Shown here piece by piece: positions 44,478 to 62,962 of a DNA stretch of 64,000 nucleotides. The stretch's first letter is position 1; each line of letters starts with the position of its first letter. Source of the stretch: a virus; IMG/VR virus record IMGVR_UViG_3300017971_004103, positions 1-64,000 of that record; one strand, 5' to 3'. The position numbers and the translations under genes were made by a program. The notes under the pieces are model-generated. The model was not told where the DNA came from. It did not search any database and saw only the letters and a list, made by a program, of their open reading frames with translations.

Positions 44478-44481
44478 TTAT

Positions 44482-44557: not shown

Positions 44558-44562
44558 TTTTA

Positions 44563-44636
44563 GGGGCGTTGGTGTAGCGGGAACATCCCAGACTCCAAAC
44601 CTGGGGCCGAGGGTTCAAATCCTTCACGCCCTGCCA
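44563..44636 (+). tRNA. tRNA-Trp(CCA)
   Basis: Acceptor GGGGCGT pairs with ACGCCCT. The anticodon loop CTCCAAA gives CCA, the discriminator is G73 as expected for Trp, and CCA is encoded. The closing base pair of the anticodon stem is an A-C mismatch. Confidence 0.9.
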
Positions 44637-46256: not shown

Positions 46257-46948
46257 TGGCAAGAGTAGAACCATTCATATCAATAGTTACCAGGGCACAC
46301 AATCGGCTTGAATATACAATCAGGTGTGTAAACGCCGTGCGGAATAATACCCTATATCCAAACTACGAACACATTATTGTTTCTCAGGGATCAACTGACG
46401 GAACGGTTGAATGGTTGAACTGGATTAAAAAAGATATGCCTAATCAATCCCACTTTTCACGGGTACGGGCATTTCACCCCGGCAAAAACTTGGGTAGTTT
46501 GGGGGGAACATTATATGCCTTAGAAAAAATACAGACTGATCTTATAGTAGTTCTCGATAATGATATGGAGGTGCCAAGGGATTGGCTTCGTAAAATGGAG
46601 CATGTTTGGCACACCCTTTATCCATCAACCAAGGGATTAATTGCGGTAATGGCAAGGCGAATCGGCGTTACAAAAACAAAGAAATGTAATTTTTATGCAC
46701 ATTATAATTATGGCAAAATGATACTTTCTGTTTGGACAACCTCTGACCCTGGCGCCTGTTTCATGTTCAAGAGAAAATCCCTATTAGAACATAGAAATGA
46801 AATGACCGAGCACTTACATGTTGGGAGATATGGAAAAACTTTCAAAATACTAGAGGTTGAAGTTACTCATATGGAGGGTGCCAATTTAGGTGGGGAAGGA
46901 AGTTATTTGCAGAATTTAAAATATAAGCCGAATGGTAAAAAGGCATGA
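46256..46948 (+). CDS. GT2-family glycosyltransferase
   Basis: This 230-residue GT-A enzyme has FISIVTRAHNRLEYTIRCVN, DLIVVLDNDMEVPRDWL with the LDND metal motif, and a late HMEGANLGGEGSY. ATG 46256 shares its A with the previous TAA; an upstream start (46235) is not needed. Confidence 0.78.
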   Translation: MARVEPFISIVTRAHNRLEYTIRCVNAVRNNTLYPNYEHIIVSQGSTDGTVEWLNWIKKDMPNQSHFSRVRAFHPGKNLGSLGGTLYALEKIQTDLIVVLDNDMEVPRDWLRKMEHVWHTLYPSTKGLIAVMARRIGVTKTKKCNFYAHYNYGKMILSVWTTSDPGACFMFKRKSLLEHRNEMTEHLHVGRYGKTFKILEVEVTHMEGANLGGEGSYLQNLKYKPNGKKA

Positions 46949-48093
46949 GCGATCCCAGACCAGATATGTATCTCTACTACAAACAGTTAATGGATCATTT
47001 AAATTGGGATGAAACTAAAATTTTTAATGGTGAATTAATTTATCCCCGTCAATTTGAGATTCATTTACCGGCAAACCATAAGAGGCCATGCAATCTGGCA
47101 TGTCCTGCATGTGCCGGAGCTTTTTTTGATAAATCACTAGGCCGATGGGAAATAGATTGTCTGGAATTACTCGATAAACTTCAGGGCAAAATTCCCTATC
47201 ATATCTATGGCGGTGCATATACTGAGCCCCTACTAAATCCCTACTTTATTACCTTTATGGCCATGACCAAAAAATGGGGTAATCATTTCGGCATCCACAC
47301 TAACGGGACACACCTCGATGACCTTGAAACAAAATACGGCTTATTGACAGAGCTCAATAAGTTATCTACTGATGATGTAGACTATTTATCAATTAGCATT
47401 GATGCTGGACTGCCCTGGAGTTGGGGAAAGACTAAGGGCACGAAAAAGCGGAAAATGTTTGGAGATATTTTAGAGGGAATAAGGCGGGCTTGTGAAATCA
47501 GAAAGAATGCCGGTGGTGGACATGCAATCAGATTGTGCTATTTGATTTCTTCCGCCAGTGGGAATATTGAGGATTTTAATGCCATAGTATCAATTGCTAA
47601 AAGTTTGGGTGTAGATAGTCTCAGATTTAGCATACCTTTCGGGAGCTACAATCAGAGCTTTGATAAAATCCGAGAATATAAGGCCAACACGGAAATCCCC
47701 GGCCATACCGTTTACGAGAAATTACTTGAGCCGATTGTATCAAAAAGCAAAGACGAAAGACCATATATATTTTATACGGGGCCGGAATATACGGACATTG
47801 ATAAGTATGACTTTACAGTTTGTGCCTACGGATATTATCAAGTCACTGTTTCCGCCGATGGTTATTTTTATAAGTGTAGTACGACTGCAACTCCTACGGG
47901 CAAGCAATGCAGAATTGGAAAGATGTCCCCCGACCTAGAGAAATTTAAAAAGGTTATCATGAGAAACCAGAACCTAAAATGGGATTGCCGGAAAATGTGT
48001 TTTGACAAGGGCTTACGAGGAAACCGCATGGCATTAGAAATCAACACCATAGTTAATGAATTGCTTGAAGGCAAGTCTGAAAGTGCAACATAA
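46945..48093 (+). CDS. Radical SAM protein with C-terminal Cys domain
   Basis: This 382-residue protein has RPCNLACPACAGAFFD (CxxxCxxC cluster site near residues 49-56), IHTNGTHLDD and SISIDAGLPWSWGK from the barrel. A SPASM-like C terminus follows (VCAYGYYQVTVSADGYFYKC, DCRKMC). The gene neighbours point to a sugar or glycan substrate. Confidence 0.78.
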   Translation: MSDPRPDMYLYYKQLMDHLNWDETKIFNGELIYPRQFEIHLPANHKRPCNLACPACAGAFFDKSLGRWEIDCLELLDKLQGKIPYHIYGGAYTEPLLNPYFITFMAMTKKWGNHFGIHTNGTHLDDLETKYGLLTELNKLSTDDVDYLSISIDAGLPWSWGKTKGTKKRKMFGDILEGIRRACEIRKNAGGGHAIRLCYLISSASGNIEDFNAIVSIAKSLGVDSLRFSIPFGSYNQSFDKIREYKANTEIPGHTVYEKLLEPIVSKSKDERPYIFYTGPEYTDIDKYDFTVCAYGYYQVTVSADGYFYKCSTTATPTGKQCRIGKMSPDLEKFKKVIMRNQNLKWDCRKMCFDKGLRGNRMALEINTIVNELLEGKSESAT

Positions 48094-49027
48094 ATATACG
48101 GGGACAATATGTGCACCATCCAGATACCGCAAGGAAGCATGCCTAACCGACCGCTATGCTCTTTTGCTAGAATCTCTTGCCAGGAAATTAAACTGGAAAC
48201 TTCTGTTTGCAGACAATATCCGACGTCCCAAATTAGAGGGGAATACATTATTCCTATTTAAAATCCCAATTAATGAGCGTAGGAGCCCTGTATTACCGGT
48301 TAATGAAATCCCTCCCCAAATGAAAGTCATTTGCTATATGACTGACCTACAGATTAATCAAAAGCAATATGGTTATCGGTATATCAAAAATTGTGATCGC
48401 ATGTTTAAGCGGGCAGATATTATCCTTTGCCCGAACGTGCGATCCTTTTATCAGCGGTGGCAAAAGTATTTTTCCAAGCTAATCTTTTTCCCTCATTTTA
48501 TTGCCCCGACAAGTAGATATAAACGATTGACTCAAATTAGTCACCAGACAAAGAAAGCTCTGCTTATTGGATTGATAGGTAAGAAAGAATATCCATTTAG
48601 GTTATTCTTGCGGCAATTGCAATCGGATTTAATTGAAGAAGTCCCGCACCCTGGCGATAGATTTGACGTTTATGAACGATTAGAGAGCGGTTATAAGATC
48701 AGAGATGCTTATGCCGAAACCATCAACCAATATGTGTGCGCTATTGCATCGAGTAGTCGATATCATTATGTATTGGGAAAACATTTTGAAATCCCAGCAT
48801 CCAATTCTATCTTATTGGCAAACGAGATTCCAGAACTAGCCAAGTGTGGATTTATGGCCAACGAACACTATATACCCATAAGCAAAAAGAATGCCCGTGA
48901 AATAATTGAAGATGTTACCCAAAATTCTTGGAAATATAGCCACATAAGAGAGAATGCAAGAAATCTTGTTTTTAGTAGACATACCATTGAACATAGAATT
49001 GAACAAATTATTCAAATGGTAAGTTAA
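48056..49027 (+). CDS. CgeB-like glycosyltransferase
   Basis: The 323-residue frame from ATG 48056 has the GT-B end KHFEIPASNSILLANEIPEL, as in CgeB/Glyco_trans_1_2 proteins. ADIILCPNVRSFYQRWQKYF and HPGDRFDVYERL precede it. GTG 48083 would shorten the overlap with the radical SAM gene and may be the true start. A clear paralog lies at 53707. Confidence 0.7.
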   Translation: MNCLKASLKVQHKYTGTICAPSRYRKEACLTDRYALLLESLARKLNWKLLFADNIRRPKLEGNTLFLFKIPINERRSPVLPVNEIPPQMKVICYMTDLQINQKQYGYRYIKNCDRMFKRADIILCPNVRSFYQRWQKYFSKLIFFPHFIAPTSRYKRLTQISHQTKKALLIGLIGKKEYPFRLFLRQLQSDLIEEVPHPGDRFDVYERLESGYKIRDAYAETINQYVCAIASSSRYHYVLGKHFEIPASNSILLANEIPELAKCGFMANEHYIPISKKNAREIIEDVTQNSWKYSHIRENARNLVFSRHTIEHRIEQIIQMVS

Positions 49028-49999
49028 ATGATCAAAGCATTTATTACTGGTGGGGCAGGATTTATCGGTAGTCACCTAGTGGATGCCCTAATAGACAAAT
49101 ATGATATTACTGTTTATGACAATCTAAGTTCCGGGAATAAGGAATTTCTAAGACCGCACCTTGACAAATCTAAAATCAAATTTATCTGCGGCGACTTGTT
49201 GGATAGAAAGAAACTACAGCAAAGCATTGCAGGTCATGACATTGTTTATCACTTAGCCGCCAATTCTAATGTTAAGCCCGATATCCCGTCTACTGAACTT
49301 GATCTTACACAGGGAACAATAGCTACTTATAGTGTTATTGAATCAATGCGGCTAACCGGAATAAGGGACATTGTTTTTTCTTCTAGCTCTGTAGTTTATG
49401 GAAAGCCGGAAGTTTTCCCCACCCCAGAGAACTACGGGCCACTCTTACCTATTTCCCTGTATGGTGCAAGCAAGCTGGCATGTGAATCTCTAATAACTGC
49501 CTTTTGTCATATGTTTAATATGAGATGTTGGATTTTTAGGTTTGCTAATATTGTAGGTACACGACAGACACATGGAATAATATTTGATTTCCTAAACAAG
49601 CTATTATCAAATCCCAGTGAACTTGAAATATTGGGAAATGGCAAACAAAAGAAATCATATCTATTGGTTAGGGAATGTATTGAGGGAATAATTTTAGGTG
49701 TAGAAAAAGCACGGGATAAAATTAATGTATACAATCTTGGTAGTACCAGCCAGGTTGAGGTAGACGAAATAGCCAATATTCTTGTCAATGAGAGAGGGTT
49801 AAGTACAATAAGATTCAGGCATACGGGCGGCGAAGGTGGCTGGCCCGGAGATGTTCCGGCGATGCTACTTGATGTTACTAAAATAAACAGACTAGGGTGG
49901 AAGGCTCGATACAATTCTAAAGAGGCAATATGCCAAGCGATAAAAGATACCGTAAAATCCAAGCAGTCATCCTTGCGGGAGGGTTGGGTACTCGGCTAA
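49028..49999 (+). CDS. NAD-dependent epimerase/dehydratase
   Basis: This 323-residue SDR enzyme has AFITGGAGFIGSHLVDALID, the NAD loop, HLAANSNVKPDI, and catalytic YGASK with SSSSVVYG before it. It resembles UDP-glucose 4-epimerase or dTDP/UDP-sugar dehydratase types. Here it may act on a GDP- or UDP-sugar of the cluster. It overlaps the HddC-like gene by 70 nt. Confidence 0.85.
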   Translation: MIKAFITGGAGFIGSHLVDALIDKYDITVYDNLSSGNKEFLRPHLDKSKIKFICGDLLDRKKLQQSIAGHDIVYHLAANSNVKPDIPSTELDLTQGTIATYSVIESMRLTGIRDIVFSSSSVVYGKPEVFPTPENYGPLLPISLYGASKLACESLITAFCHMFNMRCWIFRFANIVGTRQTHGIIFDFLNKLLSNPSELEILGNGKQKKSYLLVRECIEGIILGVEKARDKINVYNLGSTSQVEVDEIANILVNERGLSTIRFRHTGGEGGWPGDVPAMLLDVTKINRLGWKARYNSKEAICQAIKDTVKSKQSSLREGWVLG

Positions 50000-50667
50000 G
50001 GCCTCTTACTCACGAAGTTCCTAAACCTATGATCATAATAAGAAATAAACCCTTTCTTTATTATCAAATCATATATTTAAAACGATCCGGTATAAAAAAT
50101 ATTTTACTTTTAGTGGGTTATTTGGGCGATCAAATTAAAAATTATTTTGGCGATGGAAGTATATTTGGATTGTCCATAAAATACTCGGAAGATAAACATT
50201 GTCTCGGTACAGGCGGTGCAATAAAACAAGCAGCGCAATTACTTGATGACAGCTTTTTTTTAATTTATGGAGATTCATTTTTACCAATTGAATACGATAA
50301 AATATTTGAACGATTTATTGAAAATGGCAAAAGGGGTCTTTTAGTGATTTCCCATAATAGTGACCCTTTTGCAAGGGGCAATATTACCATAGACAAAGAT
50401 TCAAATATTATAAGATATGAAAAAGATGGTAGCAATAGTCGCTTGAAATACATTGATGCTGGTGTTGGTGTTCTTAGTAAGGATATTTTAACCTTTTTAG
50501 GACAACATGAGATTACTTCATTGGAAAAAGAAGGATTCCCCGAATTAATCAAACATAAAGAATTGGCAGGGTTTATTACAGATGAGAGATTTTATGATAT
50601 TGGGACAGTGGCGGGATTGAATAAGTTCAGGAGGCGGTTAAATGATTATTTCCCGTACACCATGTAG
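49930..50667 (+). CDS. hddC: HddC-like heptose-1-phosphate guanylyltransferase
   Basis: This 245-residue nucleotidyltransferase has AVILAGGLGTRLRPLTHEVP and KPMIIIRNKPFLYYQI, LGTGGAIKQAA and YGDSFLPIEYD. HddC charges D-glycero-alpha-D-manno-heptose 1-phosphate with GTP. The family also includes mannose-1-phosphate enzymes, but the hddA- and gmhA-like genes that follow favour heptose. Confidence 0.8.
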   Translation: MPSDKRYRKIQAVILAGGLGTRLRPLTHEVPKPMIIIRNKPFLYYQIIYLKRSGIKNILLLVGYLGDQIKNYFGDGSIFGLSIKYSEDKHCLGTGGAIKQAAQLLDDSFFLIYGDSFLPIEYDKIFERFIENGKRGLLVISHNSDPFARGNITIDKDSNIIRYEKDGSNSRLKYIDAGVGVLSKDILTFLGQHEITSLEKEGFPELIKHKELAGFITDERFYDIGTVAGLNKFRRRLNDYFPYTM

Positions 50668-51610
50668 GGTTAGTTTTGCTGGGGGGGGTACAGATTTACG
50701 GGCATTTTATCAACATGAGCCTGGTGCAGTAGTGGGAACGGCAATTGATAAGTACATATACATTACCATCAATAAACGATTTGATGAAACTATTCGGGCG
50801 GGTTATTCTAAAACAGAAATTGTGGATGATGTAGCACAGATTCAGCATCCCATCATTAGAGAAGCCATGAAGATTACCGGGGTTACTAGCGGGATAGAAA
50901 TAACATCCATTGCAGACCTGCCCGCAGGAACGGGCATGGGAACATCGAGCAGCTTTGCTGTTGGACTTCTCAATGCGTTATATGCGTATAAAAATGAACA
51001 CAAAACCGCAGAAGAACTTGCAAGGGATGCCGTTAAGATCGAAGTCAATATTTTAAAAGAGCCCATAGGAAAGCAGGATCAGTATTTTGCTGCGTATGGT
51101 GGGCTGAAGCATTTTGTGTTTAACTCAGATGAAACGGTATATGTGGAACCCATTATTTGTTATGAAAAAACCAGGAAGACCCTCGGTGAAAATCTTTTGC
51201 TTTTTTATACTGGGATTACCAGAAATGCTAATTCTGTTCTAAAAAAACAAAAGGAGTCTACCGAGAAAAAAATGATATATCTGGGGCACATGAAAGAGAT
51301 GGCACAAAACATTTCAAATGCCTTAGTTGAAAATGATTTAAGTTGTCTGGGAACATTTTTAAATGATGGATGGCAAAGTAAAAAGCAGCTTGTAGATACT
51401 ATTAGCAATCCGGTTATTGATTTCTATTATGAGAGAGGGATTGCGGCAGGTGCAAGCGGCGGTAAGCTACTCGGTGCAGGTAATGGTGGGTTTCTACTCT
51501 TTTATTGTACTCCACAGAATCAAGCAAAATTAAGGAATGTACTGGGATTGAGAGAGATTTCATTTTCCCTTGAGCCGCAGGGAAGCAAGATTATTTATGT
51601 AGGTAATTAA
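50642..51610 (+). CDS. hddA: HddA-like heptose-7-phosphate 1-kinase
   Basis: This 322-residue GHMP kinase begins IISRTPCRVSFAGGGTDLRA and has the ATP loop ADLPAGTGMGTSSSFAVGLL and a C-terminal AAGASGGKLLGAGNGGFLL. HddA phosphorylates C1 of D-glycero-D-manno-heptose 7-phosphate. It overlaps the hddC-like gene by 26 nt. Confidence 0.85.
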   Translation: MIISRTPCRVSFAGGGTDLRAFYQHEPGAVVGTAIDKYIYITINKRFDETIRAGYSKTEIVDDVAQIQHPIIREAMKITGVTSGIEITSIADLPAGTGMGTSSSFAVGLLNALYAYKNEHKTAEELARDAVKIEVNILKEPIGKQDQYFAAYGGLKHFVFNSDETVYVEPIICYEKTRKTLGENLLLFYTGITRNANSVLKKQKESTEKKMIYLGHMKEMAQNISNALVENDLSCLGTFLNDGWQSKKQLVDTISNPVIDFYYERGIAAGASGGKLLGAGNGGFLLFYCTPQNQAKLRNVLGLREISFSLEPQGSKIIYVGN

Positions 51611-51613
51611 AAA

Positions 51614-52186
51614 ATGGAAAAAAGCATTACAGCATATTTAGATAATCTCAAAAATTGCATCAATGATATTTCAATAGAGAAGATTGAGAAGATCATCAAT
51701 CTTATCTACCGGGCTTATAAAAACAACAGACAGATATTTATTATTGGAAATGGTGGAAGCGCTGCCACTGCAAGTCATTTTGCCTGTGATTTGGGTAAGG
51801 GAACAGCCTTCAGGGGTAGGCCAAGAATGAGGGTGATTTGTCTTAATGATAATATCCCACTCATTACGGCCATATCAAATGATTGGGACTATGATCAAAT
51901 CTTTAAAGAACAATTAATGAATCTTGTTAATTCGGGAGATATATTAATCAGCATTAGCTGTTCGGGCAACTCTAAAAACATATTGAATGCTGTTAATTAT
52001 GTAAAATCAAAGGGGATAACTAATATCGGGTTTACGGGGTTCGGTGATGAGGGTGCATTAAAACATATTGTTGATGAATACATATCTATCAATAGCACGA
52101 ATTATGGCATTGTTGAAGATGCTCACCTTACACTGGTTCATGCAATTTCTCAGGCCATAAGAAAGAAAATTATTGATGAATGGTAA
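51614..52186 (+). CDS. gmhA: GmhA-like sedoheptulose-7-phosphate isomerase
   Basis: The 190-residue SIS-domain enzyme has FIIGNGGSAATASHFACDLG and SISCSGNSKNILNAVNYVKS, with a late VEDAHLTLVHAISQAI carrying the Glu and His ligands. It turns sedoheptulose 7-phosphate into D-glycero-D-manno-heptose 7-phosphate, the first step of nucleotide-heptose synthesis. Confidence 0.88.
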   Translation: MEKSITAYLDNLKNCINDISIEKIEKIINLIYRAYKNNRQIFIIGNGGSAATASHFACDLGKGTAFRGRPRMRVICLNDNIPLITAISNDWDYDQIFKEQLMNLVNSGDILISISCSGNSKNILNAVNYVKSKGITNIGFTGFGDEGALKHIVDEYISINSTNYGIVEDAHLTLVHAISQAIRKKIIDEW

Positions 52187-53720
52187 TTTACATTTCTTAT
52201 TTATATATCCAGACATGGGAACGGACACTGCAAGTTTTTCACCGGCCATACAATTATTATCTGCAATTTTAAAGGATCGGGGAATAGATGTTAGCCTGGT
52301 TCATTTAAATAATCCCCACATGATACCAGATGACAAATCTTTCATATTGGCGGAAATTAAAAAACACAATCCAAATGTCATAGGTTTTACAGCGACAAGT
52401 TTTCAATTCACAAGGGCAAATAAAATCGCAGGATATATCAAAAAAGAGTATCCCCGTAAAACCATAATATTAGGGGGAACTCACGCCACTATTAAACCAG
52501 AAGATTTACGGGAATCTAATTTTGATGCTTTTTGTATTGGGGAGGGAGATGAGGCACTACCAGAATTCTTAGAAAAAATCGCTAGCAAACAGGATCATTC
52601 TAGTGTAAATAATTTCCATGTTAAATTAAAAGATGGAACTATTAAAAAAAATCCAATAAGGCCATTCATTAAGGATTTAAATTTTTTACCCCATTGGGAT
52701 ATGAACATAATGGATATGCCAAAACTCATTAAAATTAGAAAGGGATGGCTCAGCATATCTTTTTCCAGGGGGTGTCCATATAGATGTGCATTTTGTATAA
52801 ACCCACTACTTCTGAAATTGAACGTTCCCGAAGGGGAATGCATAGAAGGATATTGCAGAAAAAGAAGTGTTGATAACGTTATTAATGAATTAGTAATTAT
52901 TATTGAAAAATTCAAGGGCAGTATTTCAGTAATCAACTTTGACGATGATTTGTTAATGCTGGATAGGGCATGGATACTTGCATTTACCGAAAAATACATG
53001 ACCAGGATTTTTCATCCCCATAACATTCAATATGTTTTTAATTGTAGGGCTAATACCATTGACCATGAAATAGCCCAGGCGCTTTCACGAAGTGGATGTC
53101 TGGAGCTGAGAATTGGATTAGAGACGGGCGATGAAACATTACGGAATACGATATTAAACAAACGGGTTTCCAACGATGAATTGAGGCGGGCATTTTCAAT
53201 TGCCGACCAGCATGGAATTCATACCAATGCATTTGTAATGCTTGGTTTGCCGGGTGAATCACAACCAACCATCAATGCAACACTTAAATTGATTGCCGAC
53301 ATTAGGCCGTTTCTTATTCGCATGACATTTCTTTATCCATACTACCGAACCCAAATTTATGATTATTGTGTTAAGCACAATCTTATTAAACCGGAATACT
53401 ATACATTATCGAATTCATTTACGGAGTCACCACTCCGATTTCATTTGCTGGACGACAATAATCTGCTTTCTAATCGATTATTCTTTCCTTGGTATGCTAA
53501 TCTATTAATATGTGATGATCCATCAATTTATTTAGATAGAATCTGGCATTATGGAGCAATGAAATTAAAACAACTACGACAAAAACAAACCTTTAAAAAC
53601 ATATTGAATGATGATAAAGCCTTGAGCCAGACCATGACTAAGAGGGAGATCCCCCACTACAAATATTTCAGTGACAATAGAAACTATTTTCATCTCAAGG
53701 GTAAATATGGGTTCAACTAG
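52176..53720 (+). CDS. B12-binding-domain radical SAM protein
   Basis: This 514-residue protein has a B12-binding-type domain (residues 1-150; VIGFTATSFQFTRANKIAGY, ILGGTHATIKPED). Then comes a radical SAM core (FSRGCPYRCAFCINPLLL) and a long C-terminal part. Members carry out methyl transfer or ring changes on unactivated carbon. In this place it may C-methylate or rearrange a sugar. It starts at ATG 52176 inside the gmhA end. Confidence 0.82.
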   Translation: MNGNLHFLFIYPDMGTDTASFSPAIQLLSAILKDRGIDVSLVHLNNPHMIPDDKSFILAEIKKHNPNVIGFTATSFQFTRANKIAGYIKKEYPRKTIILGGTHATIKPEDLRESNFDAFCIGEGDEALPEFLEKIASKQDHSSVNNFHVKLKDGTIKKNPIRPFIKDLNFLPHWDMNIMDMPKLIKIRKGWLSISFSRGCPYRCAFCINPLLLKLNVPEGECIEGYCRKRSVDNVINELVIIIEKFKGSISVINFDDDLLMLDRAWILAFTEKYMTRIFHPHNIQYVFNCRANTIDHEIAQALSRSGCLELRIGLETGDETLRNTILNKRVSNDELRRAFSIADQHGIHTNAFVMLGLPGESQPTINATLKLIADIRPFLIRMTFLYPYYRTQIYDYCVKHNLIKPEYYTLSNSFTESPLRFHLLDDNNLLSNRLFFPWYANLLICDDPSIYLDRIWHYGAMKLKQLRQKQTFKNILNDDKALSQTMTKREIPHYKYFSDNRNYFHLKGKYGFN

Positions 53721-54699
53721 GGTATATGATGGAACGGTTTTTCTACCGGCAAGAATTTCCAAAGAACAACATCCATCTGATTGGTCAAGCCTTTTTGCCG
53801 AAACACTTGCCAAGACCTTTAGCTGGAAAATAGTTTGTTCTAACAAATTATTGCCAAGTGATATAGAGGGAGAAATATTATTTACAATCAAAGCCCCCCA
53901 ATTGGGTTATCCCAATGTACTGACTACAATCGACAAGATAAGCAAAGATATAAAAATAGTGAATTACCTACAGGATATTAGGGGTGACGATCAAAATTAT
54001 TTGCGGTATATGCATCAAATGCTAGAAAGGTCTGATCTTATTCTCTATTCCTATAAAGAATCTTTTGAAAATGGTTGGCCTGAATATATCAAAAAAGGAG
54101 TTTACTTTCCCGTATTTATTATTCCATCAGAACGATTTTTATCGTTAGAACAAGACATAAATGCCCAGGAGAAGAAATGCCTTGTTATAGGCTGCACTGA
54201 CAGAAAATGGTATCCCCTTAGACATAAGGCAACTATGCTATCGCGGGATTTATTCAATGTCATTCCCCACCCAGGCTATGATATTTCCTTTAATCAATTG
54301 GCCGAAAGAAAGAATAGGAAATTTGTAGATGCCATTGAGTATGCTGAAATGATGAATAAGCATATTTGTTGCGTGACCTCTACGCTCAATAATGAATGTT
54401 CTAATCGTACCAATCATTGGGTAGTTCTTAAATTGTTTGAAATCATGGCTGCCGGATCAATTTTGATAAGTGATTGGTGTGAGGAAATGAATGGGCTGGG
54501 ATTCATTGATGGAATTAATTTCATAGATGCTGATGCCAATAACTTAGAGGAAAAGGTTGGGGATATTGTAGGAAACCCAGCGAAATATGAGAAAATCAGT
54601 AAAGAGGGAAGGGCCTTCGTTAAAAACAATCATACAATAGAAAGGCGAATAGAATCTCTCAAAAAAATATTGAGGAATATTGGATATAGAAACTCATAA
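53707..54699 (+). CDS. CgeB-like glycosyltransferase
   Basis: The 330-residue frame from ATG 53707 (AAGGG upstream) has YPNVLTTIDKISKDIKIVNY and the GT-B end VVLKLFEIMAAGSILISDWC followed by EEMNGLGFIDG. It is a paralog of the protein at 48056 in order and spacing. It overlaps the radical SAM gene by 14 nt. Confidence 0.72.
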   Translation: MGSTRVYDGTVFLPARISKEQHPSDWSSLFAETLAKTFSWKIVCSNKLLPSDIEGEILFTIKAPQLGYPNVLTTIDKISKDIKIVNYLQDIRGDDQNYLRYMHQMLERSDLILYSYKESFENGWPEYIKKGVYFPVFIIPSERFLSLEQDINAQEKKCLVIGCTDRKWYPLRHKATMLSRDLFNVIPHPGYDISFNQLAERKNRKFVDAIEYAEMMNKHICCVTSTLNNECSNRTNHWVVLKLFEIMAAGSILISDWCEEMNGLGFIDGINFIDADANNLEEKVGDIVGNPAKYEKISKEGRAFVKNNHTIERRIESLKKILRNIGYRNS

Positions 54700-55975
54700 T
54701 TGCATTCTCGGTGGGGGCCTGGCAGGATTAAGCACAGGTCTTTTCCTGGAAGGCAAGACTACAATAATAGAAAGGGAGGCAGCACTCGGCGGTTTATGCA
54801 AAAGCATCCAGAAAGATGGTTTTACATTTGATTGTGTGGGTGGCCATATTCTCTTTTCGCGAAATAAAGATATTTTAAAATTAATCATAGACATACTTGA
54901 GCCCAATTATGAAACGAAATATAGAAATGTTAAGATATATTATAGGGGTAAATACCTTAAATACCCCTTTGAAAATGGACTGTCGGGCTTACCATTAAAA
55001 GAAAACATAGAATGTCTATACCATTATCTATTTAATGATTCAAAAACCCCCACCAACTTCAAAGAATGGCTTTATCATATATTCGGCAGGGGAATTGCTG
55101 AAAAATATTTGGTTCCCTACAATGAGAAAATATGGAAAACAGATTTGTCGAAAATGGATTTACAGTGGGTTAGTAGAATTCCCAAGCCCCCCACCCTAGA
55201 CATAATTAAATCATCCATTGGCATTTCTACTGAAGGATATAAACATCAATTATATTTTGTTTATCCCAAAACCGGGGGCATTCAATCATTAATTGATTCT
55301 ATGAAAAAGAAACTTCCAGCAAATGTAGATACTATTAAAAACTTCCCGGTCACAAAAATTTATCGGCAGAATAATCAATGGGTTGTTTCCGATGGAAAGC
55401 GCAAGGTCAAGTGTAATGTTTTGATTTCTACAATTCCCATATTTGATCTTATTGGAGCGCTTGATAATGTACCAGGTAAAATCAAAAATGCCTTGAATGG
55501 GCTAAGATATAATTCCTTAATTACCGTACTACTTGGTTTGAACTGTAAGAATCAATCTAATTTCTTAAGTGTATATTTCCCGAATAAGCATGATATTTAT
55601 CATAGAATTTGTTTCATGGAAAACTTTAGCAAGCATAATGTTCCACCCCGCAAATCGTCACTTATGGCAGAAATAACGATAAGACCCGAAGGTGGGAATA
55701 AGAGTGACGATAAAATCATTAATGATGTTATTAATGACTTAGATGCTAAAAAAATTATAAACAAAAAAGATGTTTGTTATGGTAGGGTTATTCGCACGAA
55801 ATATGCCTATGTAGTATATGATGAGGGTTATCAAAAAAACATTACCATGCTGAGGGATTACATTAATAAACTTGGTATATATCTTTGTGGCAGATTTGCC
55901 GAGTTCAAATATCTGAATATGGATGGTTGCATTGAGCACGGATTAAAACTTGCAAATAAGTTAAATCGAATATGA
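54680..55975 (+). CDS. UDP-galactopyranose mutase-like flavoprotein
   Basis: This 431-residue protein has CILGGGLAGLSTGLFLEGK, the FAD loop, GGLCKSIQKDGFTFDCVGGH and a late LCGRFAEFKYLNMDG. This is the amine-oxidase/UGM-like order seen in polysaccharide loci. It may contract a sugar ring or oxidise a sugar nucleotide. Start TTG 54680, overlapping the previous gene. Confidence 0.8.
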   Translation: MDIETHNCILGGGLAGLSTGLFLEGKTTIIEREAALGGLCKSIQKDGFTFDCVGGHILFSRNKDILKLIIDILEPNYETKYRNVKIYYRGKYLKYPFENGLSGLPLKENIECLYHYLFNDSKTPTNFKEWLYHIFGRGIAEKYLVPYNEKIWKTDLSKMDLQWVSRIPKPPTLDIIKSSIGISTEGYKHQLYFVYPKTGGIQSLIDSMKKKLPANVDTIKNFPVTKIYRQNNQWVVSDGKRKVKCNVLISTIPIFDLIGALDNVPGKIKNALNGLRYNSLITVLLGLNCKNQSNFLSVYFPNKHDIYHRICFMENFSKHNVPPRKSSLMAEITIRPEGGNKSDDKIINDVINDLDAKKIINKKDVCYGRVIRTKYAYVVYDEGYQKNITMLRDYINKLGIYLCGRFAEFKYLNMDGCIEHGLKLANKLNRI

Positions 55976-56829
55976 CAAATATAGTATTAATAGGACATGG
56001 CTACTGGGGCAAAAAGCTGGAGAATTACATTCCGGCTTTTTTTAATTTAAGGCATGTCTGTAATTTAAAAACAGATATGTCAAAAGTATGGGACGATGTT
56101 GAGGCTGTGATAATAGCCACGCCGATTGAAACACATTATAGTATTGCGATGGGTGCGCTCTTACGCGGGAAGCATGTCTTTTGCGAAAAACCCATAACCC
56201 TGAAAATAGGTGAGGCTTTAAGATTACGACATACTGCGAATGAAAGAAACCTAAAAATAGGGGTTGAGTATACATTTCAGTTTTCCCAGGGCATCCAGCA
56301 CATGATCCGCGAACTTCCCAGGATCGGGAAAATACAGCACATCGAAATGGTATCAAGGCACCTTGGCCGGTTCATGAATCATAATGTCTATTGGTTACTG
56401 GCCTCTCACTATATGGCGGTGCTTGATCGGATAGTTGATTTGGATTTGTTGAATTGGGAAGATATTGACTGCGTTAAAAATGAAAAAATTGTTACCACGG
56501 GGTTATTGGATTTTTGGAATAATGATCTAACCGGAACGATAAATGTAAGTATCAACTATCCGGGTAAGGATAATAATATCACCATTTATGGTGAAGTGGG
56601 TACTATTAAATTCAATTCGATTTCTGGGAAACTTGAGATTGCCGAATATGATAAAATCCCAATGGCGTTACCCCCCGAACTTACTCAATGCCATGATGAA
56701 TATTATACCGATGAGAAACACAACTTGAGATATGCCATGCAGTATTTCAAAGATTTGATTGACGGGAAAGTCGAATCGAATATTGATACGGCAATTAAGA
56801 TTACTCGGATACTAGGAGAAATTGATTGA
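55972..56829 (+). CDS. Gfo/Idh/MocA-family oxidoreductase
   Basis: The 285-residue product has NIVLIGHGYWGKKLENY, VIIATPIETHYSIAMGALL and GKHVFCEKPITL with the EKP catalytic Lys, followed by the GFO C-terminal sheet. Such enzymes oxidise or reduce nucleotide sugars. Overlaps on both sides by 4 nt. Confidence 0.85.
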   Translation: MTNIVLIGHGYWGKKLENYIPAFFNLRHVCNLKTDMSKVWDDVEAVIIATPIETHYSIAMGALLRGKHVFCEKPITLKIGEALRLRHTANERNLKIGVEYTFQFSQGIQHMIRELPRIGKIQHIEMVSRHLGRFMNHNVYWLLASHYMAVLDRIVDLDLLNWEDIDCVKNEKIVTTGLLDFWNNDLTGTINVSINYPGKDNNITIYGEVGTIKFNSISGKLEIAEYDKIPMALPPELTQCHDEYYTDEKHNLRYAMQYFKDLIDGKVESNIDTAIKITRILGEID

Positions 56830-57752
56830 AAATAGCGGTAATGAAGGACAGAAAGTCCTGGATTGTTGATAAGCTCTCAGACACCATTAAAAAATATGCC
56901 CCTGCCGACGTCGGCTTCACGGATTTTGAGGTAGATATCGATATTAAGGGATTATTAAAACTAGCCAAAACCCATGACATCATCTATTCAGCATTTTGGC
57001 AGCCATTCATGAGAAACGATCTGGTTTTAGATGAGCGATTTCCGGGTGATAAAACGATTATTCAGGTATGGCACTTAATTGATGGACACGACAAAAATCA
57101 GCTTAAACTCTGCCATCCCAATGTGAAACATATTGTGTATCCCTGTAGAACTACCCAAGCATCATTAAGTTTGTTGGGCGTTAAAGCATCTCTCCACAAG
57201 TGCAATATGTCGGTAGATATCGATATCTACAAACAAGTTGTACCACATAAACGCTGTGAAAAACTTAAGATCGGGAGTTTTGGTCAAAATCTACCACGAA
57301 AATGCTTTGATGTATTATGTAGCACACTTGATCAGATGGAAAATGTGGAGCTCATCACAACTTTAGGCCCTGAGCATAAAAAAGTAAGAAGATATGGGAG
57401 GGTATCAGATGAAGAAATGGTCGAACTATTCTCAGAAATTGATTGCTATGTATCGACTTCAGACTGCGAGGGTGGGCCGGTGGGTGTGCTTGAGGCTATG
57501 GGATGCGGAGTGCCTGTTGTTATTACTCCTACTGGTTTTGCTGGTGATATTGTCAGGAATGGAATAAACGGATTCATTATTCCATTTAATGATATTAGTG
57601 CATTAATAAAAAGGCTGGAATGGATACGGGAAAATCCGGGGATGTCGGGGATTATCGGGGAAAGCGGTCGAATGACTGTTGAGAAATACACACCCCAGGC
57701 AATGAGCGAACAGTACATAAATATGTTCGGGAGGATTTTCGATTCACAATAA
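56826..57752 (+). CDS. GT4-family glycosyltransferase
   Basis: This 308-residue GT-B enzyme has LKIGSFGQNLPRKCFDVLC, and STSDCEGGPVGVLEAMGCGV then PVVITPTGF, the GT4 donor site with EX7E. The Rossmann N terminus is intact. Start TTG 56826. A near copy of the 14-bp palindrome falls at its start and encodes PADVG. Confidence 0.8.
   Translation: MKIAVMKDRKSWIVDKLSDTIKKYAPADVGFTDFEVDIDIKGLLKLAKTHDIIYSAFWQPFMRNDLVLDERFPGDKTIIQVWHLIDGHDKNQLKLCHPNVKHIVYPCRTTQASLSLLGVKASLHKCNMSVDIDIYKQVVPHKRCEKLKIGSFGQNLPRKCFDVLCSTLDQMENVELITTLGPEHKKVRRYGRVSDEEMVELFSEIDCYVSTSDCEGGPVGVLEAMGCGVPVVITPTGFAGDIVRNGINGFIIPFNDISALIKRLEWIRENPGMSGIIGESGRMTVEKYTPQAMSEQYINMFGRIFDSQ
56903..56916. repeat. Palindrome TGCCGACGTCGGCT, copy 3 (one change)
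   Basis: Thirteen of 14 bases match the copies at 7764 and 11824. Confidence 0.65.
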
Positions 57753-57820
57753 CTGAAACACGACCAGAAGTTTCACCGTTTCTGATACATTTAATAGAAG
57801 ATAAATTTAAGGAGGTATTC

Positions 57821-57853
57821 ATGTTTATTAAGGGAGGTGGTCACATGGCATGA
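57821..57853 (+). CDS. Possible 10-residue leader peptide
   Basis: AAGGAGG lies 7 nt before ATG 57821, which opens MFIKGGGHMA and stops. It immediately precedes a basic-protein gene with its own GAGGAGG. It may be a leader ORF. Confidence 0.3.
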   Translation: MFIKGGGHMA

Positions 57854-57867
57854 GGAGGTGATGTTGT

Positions 57868-58041
57868 GTGGCTACCAAAAAGAGTACTGGTAAGAAGGGC
57901 AATAAAAAACATGGTCGTATGAAGAAAAAGCCCTCGCATATCCGTTATAATGCCGAGAATCGCAGAGAGAAAAACAAACTGCGAAGAATGGCGAGAATAA
58001 AAAGAAAGATGGAGAGAAAAGCGAGAAGGCGAAATGCTTAA
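57868..58041 (+). CDS. 57-residue Lys/Arg-rich protein
   Basis: From GTG 57868 (GAGGAGGTG 8 nt upstream) the frame reads MATKKSTGKKGNKKHGRMKK and later NRREKNKLRRMARIKRKMER. Short basic proteins with this nRrekNK..r pattern are frequent in phage genomes, and nucleic-acid binding is likely. Related in composition to the two mini-proteins near 39.4 kb. Confidence 0.6.
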   Translation: MATKKSTGKKGNKKHGRMKKKPSHIRYNAENRREKNKLRRMARIKRKMERKARRRNA

Positions 58042-58111
58042 TAAGCAGTAGTGGGTGGGGGAATTTCTCCTCACCTTATTTATGCAGATAAGACCCTTAA
58101 AATTCTGAAAA

Positions 58112-58139
58112 AACCCCTCGATTCAATCGGGGGGTTTTT
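58112..58139 (+). terminator. Rho-independent terminator
   Basis: AACCCCTCGATT pairs with AATCGGGGGGTT (one G-U) and runs into TTTTT. It ends the long sugar operon. Confidence 0.88.
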
Positions 58140-58184
58140 CTGTAGGATCAACGATAACTCCTTTATTGGATAGATAGGTCAAAT

Positions 58185-59174
58185 ATGAGAAAAAAAGCCC
58201 TTATAACGGGAATTACGGGAATGGACGGATCAAACCTCGCCGATTTGCTTTTAGGCAAAAATTATGAGGTACACGGAATAATTAGGCGATCATCGACCTC
58301 AAATACATGGCGGATTGATCATATCCTGGACAGAATAACATTACATGAGGGTGATGTAATGGATGGGGCTTCCCTGGTTAAGATAATGGAAAAATGTATG
58401 CCTGATGAAATATACCACCTTGCAGCCATGAGTTATGTCGGGGCATCATGGAAAACCCCGATATACACATCTGAGTGTACTGGATTAGGCACACTTAAAG
58501 TGCTTGAGGCAATGAGACAGGTGTGTGAGGGGGCTAGGTTTTATCATGCAGGATCGTCCGAGCAATTTGGGAAAGCACAAGAAACCCCACAAAAAGAAAC
58601 CACCCCATTTTATCCCCGTAGCCCCTATGGGGTGGCTAAATGTTTTGGCTTTGATATGACCCGGAACTACAGAGAGTCATACGATATGTTTTGTTGTAGC
58701 GGTATACTTTTTAACCACGAAGACCAAAGGCGCGGCATTGAATTCGTTACCCGAAAGATCACCGATGGGGTAGCACAGATAAAATTGGGGTTGCTGGATA
58801 AGCTAAAACTCGGCAATCTTGATGCAAAAAGGGATTGGGGTAGTTCGATTGATTATGTAGTTGCTATGTGGATGATGCTACAAAACGAAAACCCAATTGA
58901 TTATGTAGTGGCAACTGGCGAGACACATTCTGTCCGTGAATGGTGTGAGGCTGCTTTTTCTCATGTAAATTTGGACTACAAAGAATTTGTTGAGCTTGAC
59001 CCCAGATTTATAAGGCCAGCCGAAGTCGATATTTTAATCGGCGATGCAAGCAAAATTAAAAGGGAACTAGGCTGGAAGCCAAAAATAGGATTTAAGGAAT
59101 TGATTCAGCAAATGGTAGATGCCGACATGAAAAGAGTTTGGGATAAGGGGAAATATGATGTTAAGACTATATGA
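58185..59174 (+). CDS. GDP-mannose 4,6-dehydratase-like enzyme
   Basis: The 329-residue SDR has [59 protein letters not shown] and catalytic SPYGVAKC. This is the GMD family, which makes GDP-4-keto-6-deoxy-mannose; close relatives (DmhA-type) use GDP-manno-heptose. With GmhA/HddA/HddC in the cluster, a 6-deoxy-heptose product is plausible. Confidence 0.85.
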
Positions 59175-59370: not shown

Positions 59371-59393
59371 AAAACCCCGCCTTGTGAGCGGGG
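59369..59393 (-). terminator. Terminator for the leftward operon
   Basis: CCCCGC (59375-59380) pairs with GCGGGG (59388-59393). Read leftward, the hairpin is followed by TTTTTT. It may also stop rightward transcription weakly. Confidence 0.85.
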
Positions 59394-59418
59394 CTAGCTT
59401 GACTTATTTGCTTGTCCT

Positions 59419-59784
59419 TCAGTTTCTTTGACAATTAAAATATTTTTGGCCAGCACGTCCCATATCATCTATATAGATGTGCATAGCCTTGCCGTCGTAC
59501 TCAGCTATGATTTTGGTGGTGTCGTGGTCATCCATTGCATCTTTCGCAGTTAATTCCCGGCCATCAATCTGGTCGCCCTGACTATTGCCTCCAGAGTCGT
59601 ACCATTGTGAGGCATCTCTATACTCCCAAGTGCCATCAACAATGCCACGTAGATCATCTACGCCATTAGCATTGTCGGCATATTCTATGCCCGAGATTAC
59701 GGCTACAATATTATCAAGTGCATCATAACACTCGATTTGCAGTCCTCCACCATTGTTTTCTTTAACCTGCGCACTTGTTATCAT
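59419..59784 (-). CDS. Acidic hypothetical protein, last gene of the leftward operon
   Basis: The 121-residue product (GGGLQIECYDALDNIVAVIS, IVDGTWEYRDASQWYDSG, IAEYDGKAMHIYIDDMG) is acidic and beta-rich. Small acidic proteins are frequent among phage inhibitors, but no family was recognised. GGAGAAATT precedes the start. Confidence 0.5.
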   Translation of the reverse strand: MITSAQVKENNGGGLQIECYDALDNIVAVISGIEYADNANGVDDLRGIVDGTWEYRDASQWYDSGGNSQGDQIDGRELTAKDAMDDHDTTKIIAEYDGKAMHIYIDDMGRAGQKYFNCQRN

Positions 59785-59816
59785 AATTTCTCCTTTCCCT
59801 CTAGTGAGGGGTTAGG

Positions 59817-59981
59817 TTATTTATCCTTGTAAAATATTCCAAAGTCTGGGTCGGTTGTGACTGTAAAAATATCACCATGCTCATCTACTATATCGTCAAT
59901 AATTGTTGCAAGGTCGGCATCATCGTCAACATCTTCAGTCCACGCATACCCACTATGGGCTGTAACGGTTATTGTAATCAT
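59817..59981 (-). CDS. 54-residue acidic protein
   Basis: The frame MITITVTAHSGYAWTEDVDD continues ADLATIIDDIVDEHGD and ends FGIFYKDK. The leader GAAAGGAGAAATGAATT is nearly the same as that of the next gene downstream, which suggests local duplication of the leader. Confidence 0.5.
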   Translation of the reverse strand: MITITVTAHSGYAWTEDVDDDADLATIIDDIVDEHGDIFTVTTDPDFGIFYKDK

Positions 59982-60008
59982 AATTCATTTCTCCTTTCCC
60001 TCTGGGGG

Positions 60009-60200
60009 TTAAAGTTTTTTAAGTTCTTTTTTGGGTCTACCAGTTTTTCTAATTCTAACCATTTTTAGAAATTTGACATTGATTGCCCAATCCCTACCGA
60101 ATTTTATTGCGGGCAAGCGGCCAGACAAAATTAATTGTCTGACCCTTGACTGATTTATCTTTAGGATTTTGGCTGCTTGAGTGGTGTTTATGATTTTCAT
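60009..60200 (-). CDS. Excisionase-like HTH protein
   Basis: The 63-residue protein from the start at 60200 reads MKIINTTQAAKILKINQSRV then RQLILSGRLPAIKFGRDWAI and a GRPKK tail. This is the MerR/excisionase-type winged helix (HTH_17). It may repress the divergent promoter region or control the operon. Confidence 0.75.
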   Translation of the reverse strand: MKIINTTQAAKILKINQSRVRQLILSGRLPAIKFGRDWAINVKFLKMVRIRKTGRPKKELKKL

Positions 60201-60520
60201 GATGTCCTCCTCAAAATTCCGATTTCGCAATTTTTCAAGACAAAATCGGGGGTGAGCTTGCCCTTGAGGGTGGGGTCAGACATTCGGCAAGTGAGGCGGA
60301 AAATTAGAGCTTCATCACCGGATGCCATTTTCACCATTCTTCGATTAGTGGGGATGAGGATTCCGGTTATTGCCGAGATGGCAGAAGCCGTCTCAGCATA
60401 ACCGATTGTGCTGTCGAATGTACCAGCACTCAACCATTTTTTGGCCGTCTCAACATCCACTAGAAAATAATCGTATTTTCCCGGAGATGTGATAACGGCA
60501 CTATTTAATATATATCTCAT
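60197..60520 (-). CDS. DUF1874 protein (AcrIII-1 ring-nuclease family)
   Basis: The 107-residue product begins MRYILNSAVITSPGKYDYFL and has TIGYAETASAISAITGILIP, then NRRMVKMASGDEALIFRLTC. This is the DUF1874 fold. Viral members (AcrIII-1) bind and cut cyclic tetra-adenylate and so block type III CRISPR. The catalytic His of the IGH motif is Tyr41 here (IGYAET), so this copy may bind without cutting or act otherwise. It overlaps genes on both sides by 4 nt. Confidence 0.75.
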   Translation of the reverse strand: MRYILNSAVITSPGKYDYFLVDVETAKKWLSAGTFDSTIGYAETASAISAITGILIPTNRRMVKMASGDEALIFRLTCRMSDPTLKGKLTPDFVLKNCEIGILRRTS

Positions 60521-60984
60521 ACTTCGACGGCCTCCTCGCCGTCTAGGAGTACATCATTACCCAAAGGGATAAATCCATCGGGAGTAAATTTATCATAACG
60601 CACCCCATGTCTGCCCTTATAGGTATCATGAGCCAGAATAGATTCACAAGTGACAATCCCGATATTGGATTCAGAATTGCCATAACCCCCACAACTAGAG
60701 GCCATGAAAATGGGTTCGGGGGATACGTTTACACCATAACCACCGCCCATGAAAACACCCACCACTCCCTCCTTTTTGGGTGGGTTGATGAAAATATAGG
60801 AGTGATTGCCCTTTTCGTAATAGGCAACCTCTCCCTCAGTTTGTGTCCACCCCTTATCATTGTAAGGGATGAACTCACCTTGAAAATCTTTTCCTGATAC
60901 GATTACCAGGTTGCGCCTCGTGGCGCCATTACTCTTTTCTATTTTTCCCCCTTCATAGGGGAAATTAAAATATATTTTACTCAT
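60517..60984 (-). CDS. Unknown protein with Gly-rich core
   Basis: The 155-residue frame from 60984 (after GAAAGGAGTAAATGT) reads MSKIYFNFPYEGGKIEKSNG, then NLVIVSGKDFQGEFIPYNDK and VVGVFMGGGYGVNV. Beta-rich, with a central Gly-rich region. Family not recognised. An upstream start would run through the previous gene. Confidence 0.5.
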   Translation of the reverse strand: MSKIYFNFPYEGGKIEKSNGATRRNLVIVSGKDFQGEFIPYNDKGWTQTEGEVAYYEKGNHSYIFINPPKKEGVVGVFMGGGYGVNVSPEPIFMASSCGGYGNSESNIGIVTCESILAHDTYKGRHGVRYDKFTPDGFIPLGNDVLLDGEEAVEV

Positions 60985-60988
60985 ACAT

Positions 60989-61252
60989 TTACTCCTTTCT
61001 CCCGTGCTCATTTTGAGCGCAGGAATGATTCTCAGAAAACAGCCCGCTTGTTTCCCGAGATAAAATTTCGGCTCTGTGCTCGTACACCCAGCGGGCGTGT
61101 TTGCAAACTCTCCCATTACGGGCAGAAGGACACGAACACTTTAGGGACTTAAGTCCCACAAAATAAAATTGTCCTGGAAGGGACTCAGACTCAATTGAGA
61201 CTGTAACCCCATTTTCCAATAGTTCCCAAGATGATGGTACGAATGGTCTCAT
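60989..61252 (-). CDS. SWIM-type zinc-finger protein
   Basis: The 87-residue protein has CSCPSARNGRVCKHARWVYE, the CxC...CxH SWIM motif, after a beta-rich start (MRPFVPSSWELLENGVTVSI). SWIM fingers bind DNA or protein. GGAGGGAAA precedes the start at 61252. Confidence 0.65.
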   Translation of the reverse strand: MRPFVPSSWELLENGVTVSIESESLPGQFYFVGLKSLKCSCPSARNGRVCKHARWVYEHRAEILSRETSGLFSENHSCAQNEHGRKE

Positions 61253-61506
61253 TTTCCCTCCTTTTCTAAAAAGGTTAATCTTGCCCGTTTCTCCCACCTA
61301 CCCAGGCGGGGAAAAGGAACATCTATATCCAATATGGCAGCCCTTCGCACATGCTGTACTTGCTGCCAAATTCTTAGAAATGTTTCTTCTTCCTTAACCG
61401 AGAGAGAAGAAACGATTTTCCCCTTACAACGTATTGCTCCGTCTTTAAGAGAGAAAGTTAAATATCGCCCATCAGGGCAGAAAATTTTTCTGGTGAAAGG
61501 TCTCAT
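61249..61506 (-). CDS. Hypothetical protein of the leftward operon
   Basis: The 85-residue product begins MRPFTRKIFCPDGRYLTFSL, similar in its first codons and leader (GGGAGGGAGACTA) to the next gene, and continues with a helical end. Function unknown. Confidence 0.5.
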   Translation of the reverse strand: MRPFTRKIFCPDGRYLTFSLKDGAIRCKGKIVSSLSVKEEETFLRIWQQVQHVRRAAILDIDVPFPRLGRWEKRARLTFLEKEGK

Positions 61507-61856
61507 TAGTCTCCCTCCCTCACCCATTGCCTCATTTCAAAGCGATGGGTACAAGAGTCTACCAAAGTAGATTCAAAACTAGTTTCTCGCAAGAGTTTTT
61601 TCAATCTCTTGCGGGCACGGCTTGGAGTCCGGCCAGCAGCGAGTAAAATACGACGCTCCGGCCAAATTTCCGACTCATGAAAAGAGCCGTTCCAACCGTT
61701 GTCAAACTCTGCCCATTCCGGCAGGTCTCGGTTATCGACTGGTGCAGGAGTATCAATACCCCTGATAAATGCTACCCACCTATGACTGCGGGTAGCGAAG
61801 GAACAATCAAGAAAAAAATGATGCTCCCTAAATTTTTTCAATCTCAATATTTTCAT
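61506..61856 (-). CDS. First gene of the leftward operon, unknown
   Basis: The 116-residue product (MKILRLKKFREHHFFLDCSF, WVAFIRGIDTPAPVDNRDLP, RTPSRARKRLKKLLRETSFE) follows the promoter directly and has AAGGGAGA as its ribosome-binding site. Family not recognised. Confidence 0.5.
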   Translation of the reverse strand: MKILRLKKFREHHFFLDCSFATRSHRWVAFIRGIDTPAPVDNRDLPEWAEFDNGWNGSFHESEIWPERRILLAAGRTPSRARKRLKKLLRETSFESTLVDSCTHRFEMRQWVREGD

Positions 61857-61878
61857 TGGGTCTCCCTTATAATTAATC

Positions 61879-61908
61879 TTGATTATAATATAACCCATAC
61901 GTTATAGT
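61879..61908 (+). promoter_or_regulatory. Possible divergent rightward promoter
   Basis: TTGATT (61879-61884) and TATAGT (61903-61908) are 18 nt apart on the plus strand and overlap the leftward promoter. It would serve the GT at 61997. Confidence 0.45.
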
Positions 61909-61915
61909 TTGTCAA
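61887..61915 (-). promoter_or_regulatory. Sigma-70 promoter of the leftward operon
   Basis: On the minus strand, TTGACA (61915-61910) is followed after exactly 17 nt by TATATT (61892-61887). The first start codon is about 30 nt further on. Confidence 0.85.
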
Positions 61916-61996: not shown

Positions 61997-62962
61997 ATGA
62001 AAAAAGATGTGAAAAAAAAGCTGCTTTATGTTCCGATTGACCAGTTTTCTCATGGGGGAGGCAGTACATTTTTAATGTCATTGTTACCCTCTGTAGGGCG
62101 TAACATCACTCAAGATATAGCTGATGAATGGGATGTTGCCTTAATGATGGGAGCAGAAACCGATATTGATACTATTAATAGTATTGTTACAGAAAGAAAA
62201 GAACGGGGTGCAAAAATCCTGTTCAGGCTCGACGGAATAAAATATACGAGAATGCCCGAAGGTATCGAGCGAATGAAAGCCATGTTTGATATCGCTGATA
62301 CTGTGGTTTATCAAAGTAATTTTGTAAAATCTGAAGCAGAAAAACTTTGGGGTGAACACAAAAATAGCAAAGTAATTTATAACGGTGTTGATTTAGAAAA
62401 ATTTAAACCCCGAAGACCGGATGATTTTTACAATAGACAACATAGTTTTTTGTACTGTGAATTTTCCCACAAACTCCACAAGCGAGCACAGGAGGCATTC
62501 GGGTTATTTAAAAAGATTATTGGGAAATATCCCAATGCCAAATTAACTATCATTGGTAAATTTCCCCAGGATTGGGTTAATCAATGTTTCGGATTGCCCC
62601 AGGAGAACGTAAAATATTTGTGTCGTATTCCCCATGATGTTATGCCTGGCATTTTGAACAGTCACAAGGTTTTATTGTTCCCTTCCGTTGATGAACCTTG
62701 CAGTAATTTAGTTTTAGAAGCTATGGCATCGGAAGTTTTGATTATTCACAAAGACAGTGGTTGTATGCCCGAGCTTTGTGGTGATACTCAGATACTATGG
62801 ACTGGTGATTTAAATTGCATCGATTCCCTGTATTGCAAATCCCATGATTACCACGCCGGCAGATTGCGTGTGCATAAATATTTTTCTAAGTACGAAATGA
62901 TAAAAAACTATCTGGAGGCATTAGGGGAATATGGAATATCAGGAGTTGTTGAAGAAGGTTGA
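61997..62962 (+). CDS. GT4-family glycosyltransferase
   Basis: The 321-residue product has LYVPIDQFSHGGGSTFLMSL, VYQSNFVKSEAEKLWG, VIYNGVDLEKFKP and VLLFPSVDEPCSNLVLEAMA, the donor-binding end of GT4. It starts with a weak ribosome-binding site after the divergent promoter region. Last GT of the block. Confidence 0.8.
   Translation: MKKDVKKKLLYVPIDQFSHGGGSTFLMSLLPSVGRNITQDIADEWDVALMMGAETDIDTINSIVTERKERGAKILFRLDGIKYTRMPEGIERMKAMFDIADTVVYQSNFVKSEAEKLWGEHKNSKVIYNGVDLEKFKPRRPDDFYNRQHSFLYCEFSHKLHKRAQEAFGLFKKIIGKYPNAKLTIIGKFPQDWVNQCFGLPQENVKYLCRIPHDVMPGILNSHKVLLFPSVDEPCSNLVLEAMASEVLIIHKDSGCMPELCGDTQILWTGDLNCIDSLYCKSHDYHAGRLRVHKYFSKYEMIKNYLEALGEYGISGVVEEG

Follow-up and report, generated by a model that had tools for sequence, protein, structure and literature searches.

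In this study, we analysed a stretch of viral DNA of 64,000 nucleotides, referred to here as the window, which lies within a 76,763-base virus record (IMG/VR record IMGVR_UViG_3300017971_004103) bearing terminase, portal and major head genes. Most of the phage genes are on the plus strand, and the gene of interest, which codes for a DUF1874 protein, belongs to an operon of eight genes on the minus strand (Table 1). The arrangement of a promoter, an operon, a terminator-like hairpin and a downstream helix-turn-helix gene recalls the layout of anti-CRISPR operons. An identical 17-base stretch is found at 59786-59802 and 59987-60003; it carries the ribosome-binding region ahead of two small operon genes that follow one another. 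Elsewhere in the window there is a phage glycan and radical-SAM cluster (46945-59174 and 61997-62962), with genes for glycosyltransferases, a GDP-mannose 4,6-dehydratase, an epimerase, a GHMP kinase and a B12-binding radical SAM protein, as well as three clustered genes for tRNAs (Ala, Met and Trp; 44401-44636). For the 8 kb tested, known phages related to the window at the DNA level were not found.

Table 1. Genes and sequence features of the minus-strand operon, in the order of transcription, with the two altered sites of the DUF1874 gene
Feature	Position in window	Strand	Basis
Sigma-70-like promoter TTGACA-17-TATATT (11/12), just upstream of the first gene	61887..61915	-	consensus match only
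Protein of 117 aa, or 130 aa if an earlier start is used; no family; first operon gene	61506..61859	-	ORF list, family search
92-aa protein, no family	61249..61527	-	ORF list, family search
102-aa SWIM zinc-finger protein, PF04434 (E 6.1e-5)	60989..61297	-	ORF list, family search
158-aa protein without known family; next gene upstream, 4-base overlap with the DUF1874 start	60517..60993	-	
107-aa DUF1874 (PF08960) protein belonging to the Tyr clade, ATG to stop	60197..60520	-	ORF list, Pfam match, alignment, tree
Codon 41 (TAT, Tyr), replacing the catalytic His	60398..60400	-	sequence and alignments
D-P-T-L-K-G loop in place of the PEG loop, codons 82-87, with invariant Lys86	60260..60277	-	alignment
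63-aa protein, probably a regulator, with a helix-turn-helix (PF12728 HTH_17, E 3.2e-8); gene immediately downstream	60009..60200	-	
54-aa ORF	59817..59981	-	ORF list
121-aa ORF, no family; last operon gene	59419..59784	-	ORF list, family search
Intrinsic-terminator-like hairpin followed by a T run, just past the last gene	59373..59395	-	pattern match only

The window protein is a member of the DUF1874 family both by sequence cut-off and by fold. PF08960 (STIV_B116-like) was the sole family reported in a Pfam search (E 7.6e-15; score 55.3 bits, cut-off 26), and the protein also matched PHROG 5063 (E 1.6e-12). Its AlphaFold2 monomer model has a mean pLDDT of 87.1, with the lowest confidence in the block of residues 81-90 (pLDDT about 71), and gave TM scores of 0.86 to AFV3-109 (2J6B) and 0.80-0.82 to SIRV1 gp29 (6SCF); significant matches in the PDB were limited to the DUF1874 family. 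A preliminary description of this DNA had placed the protein in the AcrIII-1 family, and as regards membership of DUF1874 this is borne out by the Pfam match and the fold. Viruses employ proteins of this family to break down the signal molecule of type III CRISPR immunity. The gene is virus-encoded, as expected for AcrIII-1; however, the catalytic histidine, a residue that defines AcrIII-1, is absent and for this reason we do not use the AcrIII-1 name for the window protein.

We aligned the window protein with AFV3-109 and STIV B116, and then with 6 and 14 relatives, and in every alignment Tyr41 occupied the column of His47 in SIRV1 gp29 and His45 in AFV3-109, within the motif S-x-[IV]-G-H (gp29 residue numbers apart from His47 derive from the alignment). 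Histidine is present in this column in AFV3-109, STIV B116, Csx1-Crn2 and Bacillus YddF, and likewise in proteins of Fusobacterium phage Fnu1, Synechococcus phage S-CBWM1 and a Thermoanaerobacterium plasmid. The tyrosine codon, which appears as 'ata' on the plus strand, is a single base away from the histidine codon CAT. The replacement of the conserved histidine by Tyr41 noted in the preliminary description is therefore confirmed for the exact catalytic column, and its statement that this histidine is needed for fast cleavage is also correct. A misalignment can be rejected, as the flanking S-x-I-G and T-A residues (Ser37, Gly40, Thr44 and Ala45) lock the register and place no other residue at the histidine position. 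The nearest relatives (about 46-57% identity; the first one found, L009, has 54%) also carry tyrosine. A sequencing error or decay in a single phage was likewise rejected, because 23 other distinct members, including all of the closest relatives, have tyrosine at this position, and dN/dS values in the clade are low.

To date we have gathered 67 distinct DUF1874 members from scans of viral contigs and genome contigs and from profile searches of genomes; 43 have histidine in the catalytic column, 24 have tyrosine and none has a third residue, numbers that are not frequencies since Tyr members served as bait. What had been described as one odd protein is thus part of a clade that has at least 24 members and is found in a variety of phages, in prophage-like contigs and in a single type III CRISPR locus. 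A scan of viral contigs with the single protein gave no matches, and a first mixed alignment was too divergent for scanning, while smaller alignments succeeded. Among several hundred sampled genomes of the phyla concerned, no cellular Tyr genes were found beyond the seed genomes, with the exception of one fragment at a contig end. The peptide patterns used to fetch the clade neither demanded Tyr41 nor touched residue 86, so the invariance of Tyr41 and Lys86 is real, whereas that of YILNSAV (which holds Asn6 and Ser7) and GDEAL in part reflects the search patterns themselves. An origin of the tyrosine in the search patterns was rejected on the same grounds, and the profile searches of genomes returned both types.

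In the phylogenetic tree, all Tyr members fall on one side of a single branch with a support of 100/99. When the active-site columns were removed and nearly all of the rows (66) retained, the His/Tyr label required two changes; when seven long or fragmentary rows, among them the Tyr fragment L081, were omitted as well, a single Tyr clade was again recovered at 100/98, and we therefore rejected the idea that monophyly is an artefact of the active-site columns. It seems that the switch from histidine to tyrosine occurred once. In three close pairs inside the clade dN/dS was 0.066, 0.057 and 0.044, which indicates strong purifying selection on these proteins. One member (L099:5737-6408), in which Gly40 is replaced by arginine and Arg60 by proline, is possibly decayed or further diverged. 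A literature search, with most subscription journals outside its reach, found no description of the Tyr branch, and the largest survey discarded matches without key conserved residues (PMC12409355), so that Tyr proteins could have been filtered out.

The change at position 41 does not stand alone. In AFV3-109, His45 forms a hydrogen bond with Glu86 of the second monomer beside Asn6, Thr48 and Arg64, and the conserved pocket is lined by Asn6, Thr48 and Glu86 (PMC1796864). This partner glutamate is kept in 41 of the 43 His members, mostly as part of a PEG motif. In the Tyr clade the conserved glutamate is absent; its position is taken by Asp, Asn or another residue, followed by an inserted P-x-x-K, and the resulting Lys86 is found in all 24 Tyr members, within an insertion of 3-4 residues that none of the 43 His members has. 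Tyr41 is equally strict (24/24, against histidine in 43/43 outside the clade). Residues on the binding side are retained, namely Asn6, Ser7 and Thr44 (24/24 each) and Arg60 (23/24), and all members have an arginine immediately preceding the loop, although a longer loop shifts its position in the alignment. In Csx1-Crn2 the counterpart of Ser7 is Ser452, and the S452Y substitution in that protein severely weakens cA4 binding (PMC7293037). Judged from these alignments, the pocket seems to have kept its binding side, and the His and the Glu of the pair have both been replaced. The loss of histidine and glutamate and the gain of lysine are probably one evolutionary event, and since the switch seems to have been a single one, the correlated changes do not count as independent support.

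In a Nitrospira MAG contig (L045), the Tyr gene is the first in a one-strand row and is followed by genes for an NE0113-CARF/sigma-54 activator fusion, a Card1-like nuclease and a Card1-CARF protein; cas1, cas2, an RNase HI-like gene and cas6 face this row, with a TM1812 CARF gene beyond them, and a Csx11 gene is present on a different contig of the same MAG. His members in three other loci (L065-L067) lie directly before TM1812 or Card1 genes, a position like that of the Nitrospira Tyr member. The fusion protein (L045:8092-9861) is a candidate for a transcription activator controlled by cyclic oligoadenylate, and a 980-aa frame next to the CRISPR genes (L045:391-3330), which seems to contain membrane segments, had no matches in NCBIfam or PADLOC. 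The other Tyr genes are found in phage or phage-like sequence. Three MAGs with Tyr members (L044, L046 and L047) carry Cas10/Csm1, although the binning of the phage contigs there is uncertain. One phage contig (L050; IMGVR_UViG_3300031812_000001) carries a Tyr copy and an intact His copy about 6 kb apart (the two genes lie at L050:14206-14556 and L050:8001-8336). Apart from the DUF1874 gene and its antisense shadows, no neighbour gene was common to most of the Tyr phage loci.

Based on these data, we propose, with a probability of roughly 0.4, that the window gene encodes a retooled ring nuclease which cleaves cyclic oligoadenylate by means of tyrosine, lysine and arginine residues. The broader idea that the protein handles nucleotide messengers of some kind we regard as quite probable, and it is favoured by the Nitrospira Tyr member, which is located inside a CRISPR signalling operon in a position like that of the His members. 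According to the proposed model, two subunits would form the cradle typical of the family, which would bind a cyclic oligoadenylate of the type III CRISPR response, most likely cA4, via Asn6, Ser7, Thr44, Arg60 and the loop arginine. Tyr41, together with Lys86 of the other subunit and arginine residues, would then make up a metal-independent site in place of the His-Glu pair, the ring would be cut through attack by a 2'-OH group, and removal of the alarm molecule would blunt the CRISPR effectors. There is a parallel for such an exchange: RelE cleaves RNA by 2'-OH attack using tyrosine, lysine and arginine residues, and its relative YoeB, which has the same fold, uses glutamate and histidine. 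Several points count against a catalytic role. Most characterized ring nucleases rely on histidine (AcrIII-1, Crn4, AcrIII-2 and, where active, Csx15), and as the H47A and H495A mutants are inactive, loss of the histidine by itself would predict loss of fast cleavage. In addition, the contact between Lys86 and Tyr41 is putative, the structure model being that of a monomer with its lowest confidence in the block of residues 81-90, and a CRISPR locus houses just one of the 24 members.

The preliminary description had suggested that the protein may sequester the messenger, use another one or have a different job; all three remain on our list, to which we add a rebuilt active site and rate it somewhat above sequestration. 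The close rival is indeed that clade proteins bind cA4 or another cyclic oligoadenylate tightly without cleaving it fast, with Tyr41 and Lys86 improving the binding. Family members with the histidine mutated to alanine retain cA4 binding at about 20-25 nM (PMC7213978, PMC7293037), so that loss of the histidine alone would yield such a sponge, the pocket residues that have been kept are the binding ones, and the Csx15 family includes cA4 sponges devoid of enzymatic activity next to members that degrade cA4 slowly (PMC13148439). However, the Csx15 authors point out that sequestration could be fruitless given the large messenger output of type III systems (PMC13148439), a sponge has no need for a second invariant pair at both the His and Glu sites, and the phage with two copies retains a His protein beside the Tyr protein. 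Because both members of the pair have been invariantly replaced, we consider cleavage in another form more likely than pure sequestration, although the two readings are close in probability.

Less probable still is a change of messenger, in which the rebuilt pocket would serve for cA3, cA6, SAM-AMP or a nucleotide of the CBASS type and not for cA4. The two copies about 6 kb apart would fit a division of labour, and the floor of the cradle is altered too: Ala8 is present in 24/24 Tyr members, where the His members mostly have Leu, Pro or Ala, and Tyr16 and Tyr18 are further differences, although the N-terminal stretch was part of the search pattern. In its strongest form, which we find similarly improbable, the Tyr-Lys site would define a distinct class on the AcrIII-1 fold that acts on other type III or CBASS nucleotides, and phages of the two-copy kind would keep one copy per signal. 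On the other hand, the two-copy phage was seen only once, no residue predicts a specific ligand and the Nitrospira operon contains Card1-type CARF genes. The best known activator of Card1-type CARF proteins is cA4. The least likely option is that the clade has no link to nucleotide signals and serves in DNA binding, gene regulation or some other phage job, as might be suggested by the helix-turn-helix gene that follows in the window, the nearly general location of the members in phage-like sequence without CRISPR context and the binding of double-stranded DNA by AFV3-109 (PMC1796864); this is countered by the conserved pocket, the member in a CARF operon and the action on cA4 of the relatives that have been tested biochemically.

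If the Tyr branch is active, it would represent a second catalytic solution on one fold, and if it is a sponge or a reader of another signal, a new type of counter-defence. The anti-CRISPR role of AcrIII-1 at native expression is disputed (Nature 2025, 640:E8, cited in PMC12751052 and PMC13131331), which is a further point against the proposed reading, and the Tyr branch bears on this dispute. The question is directly testable, as the clade proteins are small and expressible, and the two-copy phage provides a natural His/Tyr pair.

With regard to known systems, the window protein shares the PF08960 fold with AcrIII-1 from SIRV1 (gp29, 6SCF), AFV3-109 (2J6B) and STIV B116 (2J85) at TM scores of 0.71-0.86; all are small viral proteins that have Asn6, Ser37, Gly40, Thr44, Arg60, Gly68-Asp69 and the loop arginine in common. 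It differs from them in the replacement of histidine by tyrosine and of the Glu/PEG loop by a longer loop with an invariant lysine, and the Tyr clade has its own C-terminus, E-x-G-[LI]-L. The catalytic histidine (His47 in gp29 and His495 in Csx1-Crn2) is absent from the window protein and from the entire clade (24/24). Crn2, the cellular DUF1874 form represented by Marinitoga Csx1-Crn2 (8Y7F/8Y7G), has a homologous domain, which in Csx1-Crn2 depends on His495. Crn2 is marked by its location in a type III CRISPR locus; the window gene is phage-borne and lies outside such a locus, whereas the Nitrospira Tyr member, next to cas1, cas2, cas6 and CARF genes, has a CRISPR-CARF setting similar to that of Crn2. 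A ring-nuclease family in which some members sequester the messenger without enzymatic activity is already known in Csx15, but this is a different, CARF-like family that forms filaments and is not seen in phages.

Some further observations concern other DUF1874 proteins and their annotation. On a Vibrio aerogenes plasmid (L007:2977-5125), a His DUF1874 gene is located directly before a gene for a 604-aa protein whose C-terminal part weakly matches CARF, and the cas1 gene of the type III CRISPR locus there is unusually long. Three proteins of Erwinia phage vB_EamM_Kwan (A0A1B2IEC3, A0A1B2IEJ3 and A0A1B2IEG6) gave weak-to-moderate matches to the DUF1874 fold, which suggests a diverged paralogous set. 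A likeness of the fold of the ring nuclease Csx16 to 2J6B has been reported (PMC12409355). The PADLOC-DB model PDLC01147, which is labelled Csx16, matched the window protein with E 2.3e-13 and the ordinary His DUF1874 protein of the Vibrio plasmid far better (E 1.9e-28); the Csx16 label therefore appears to cover DUF1874, does not decide whether the window protein belongs to Csx16, and may mislead the annotation of DUF1874/Crn2 proteins.
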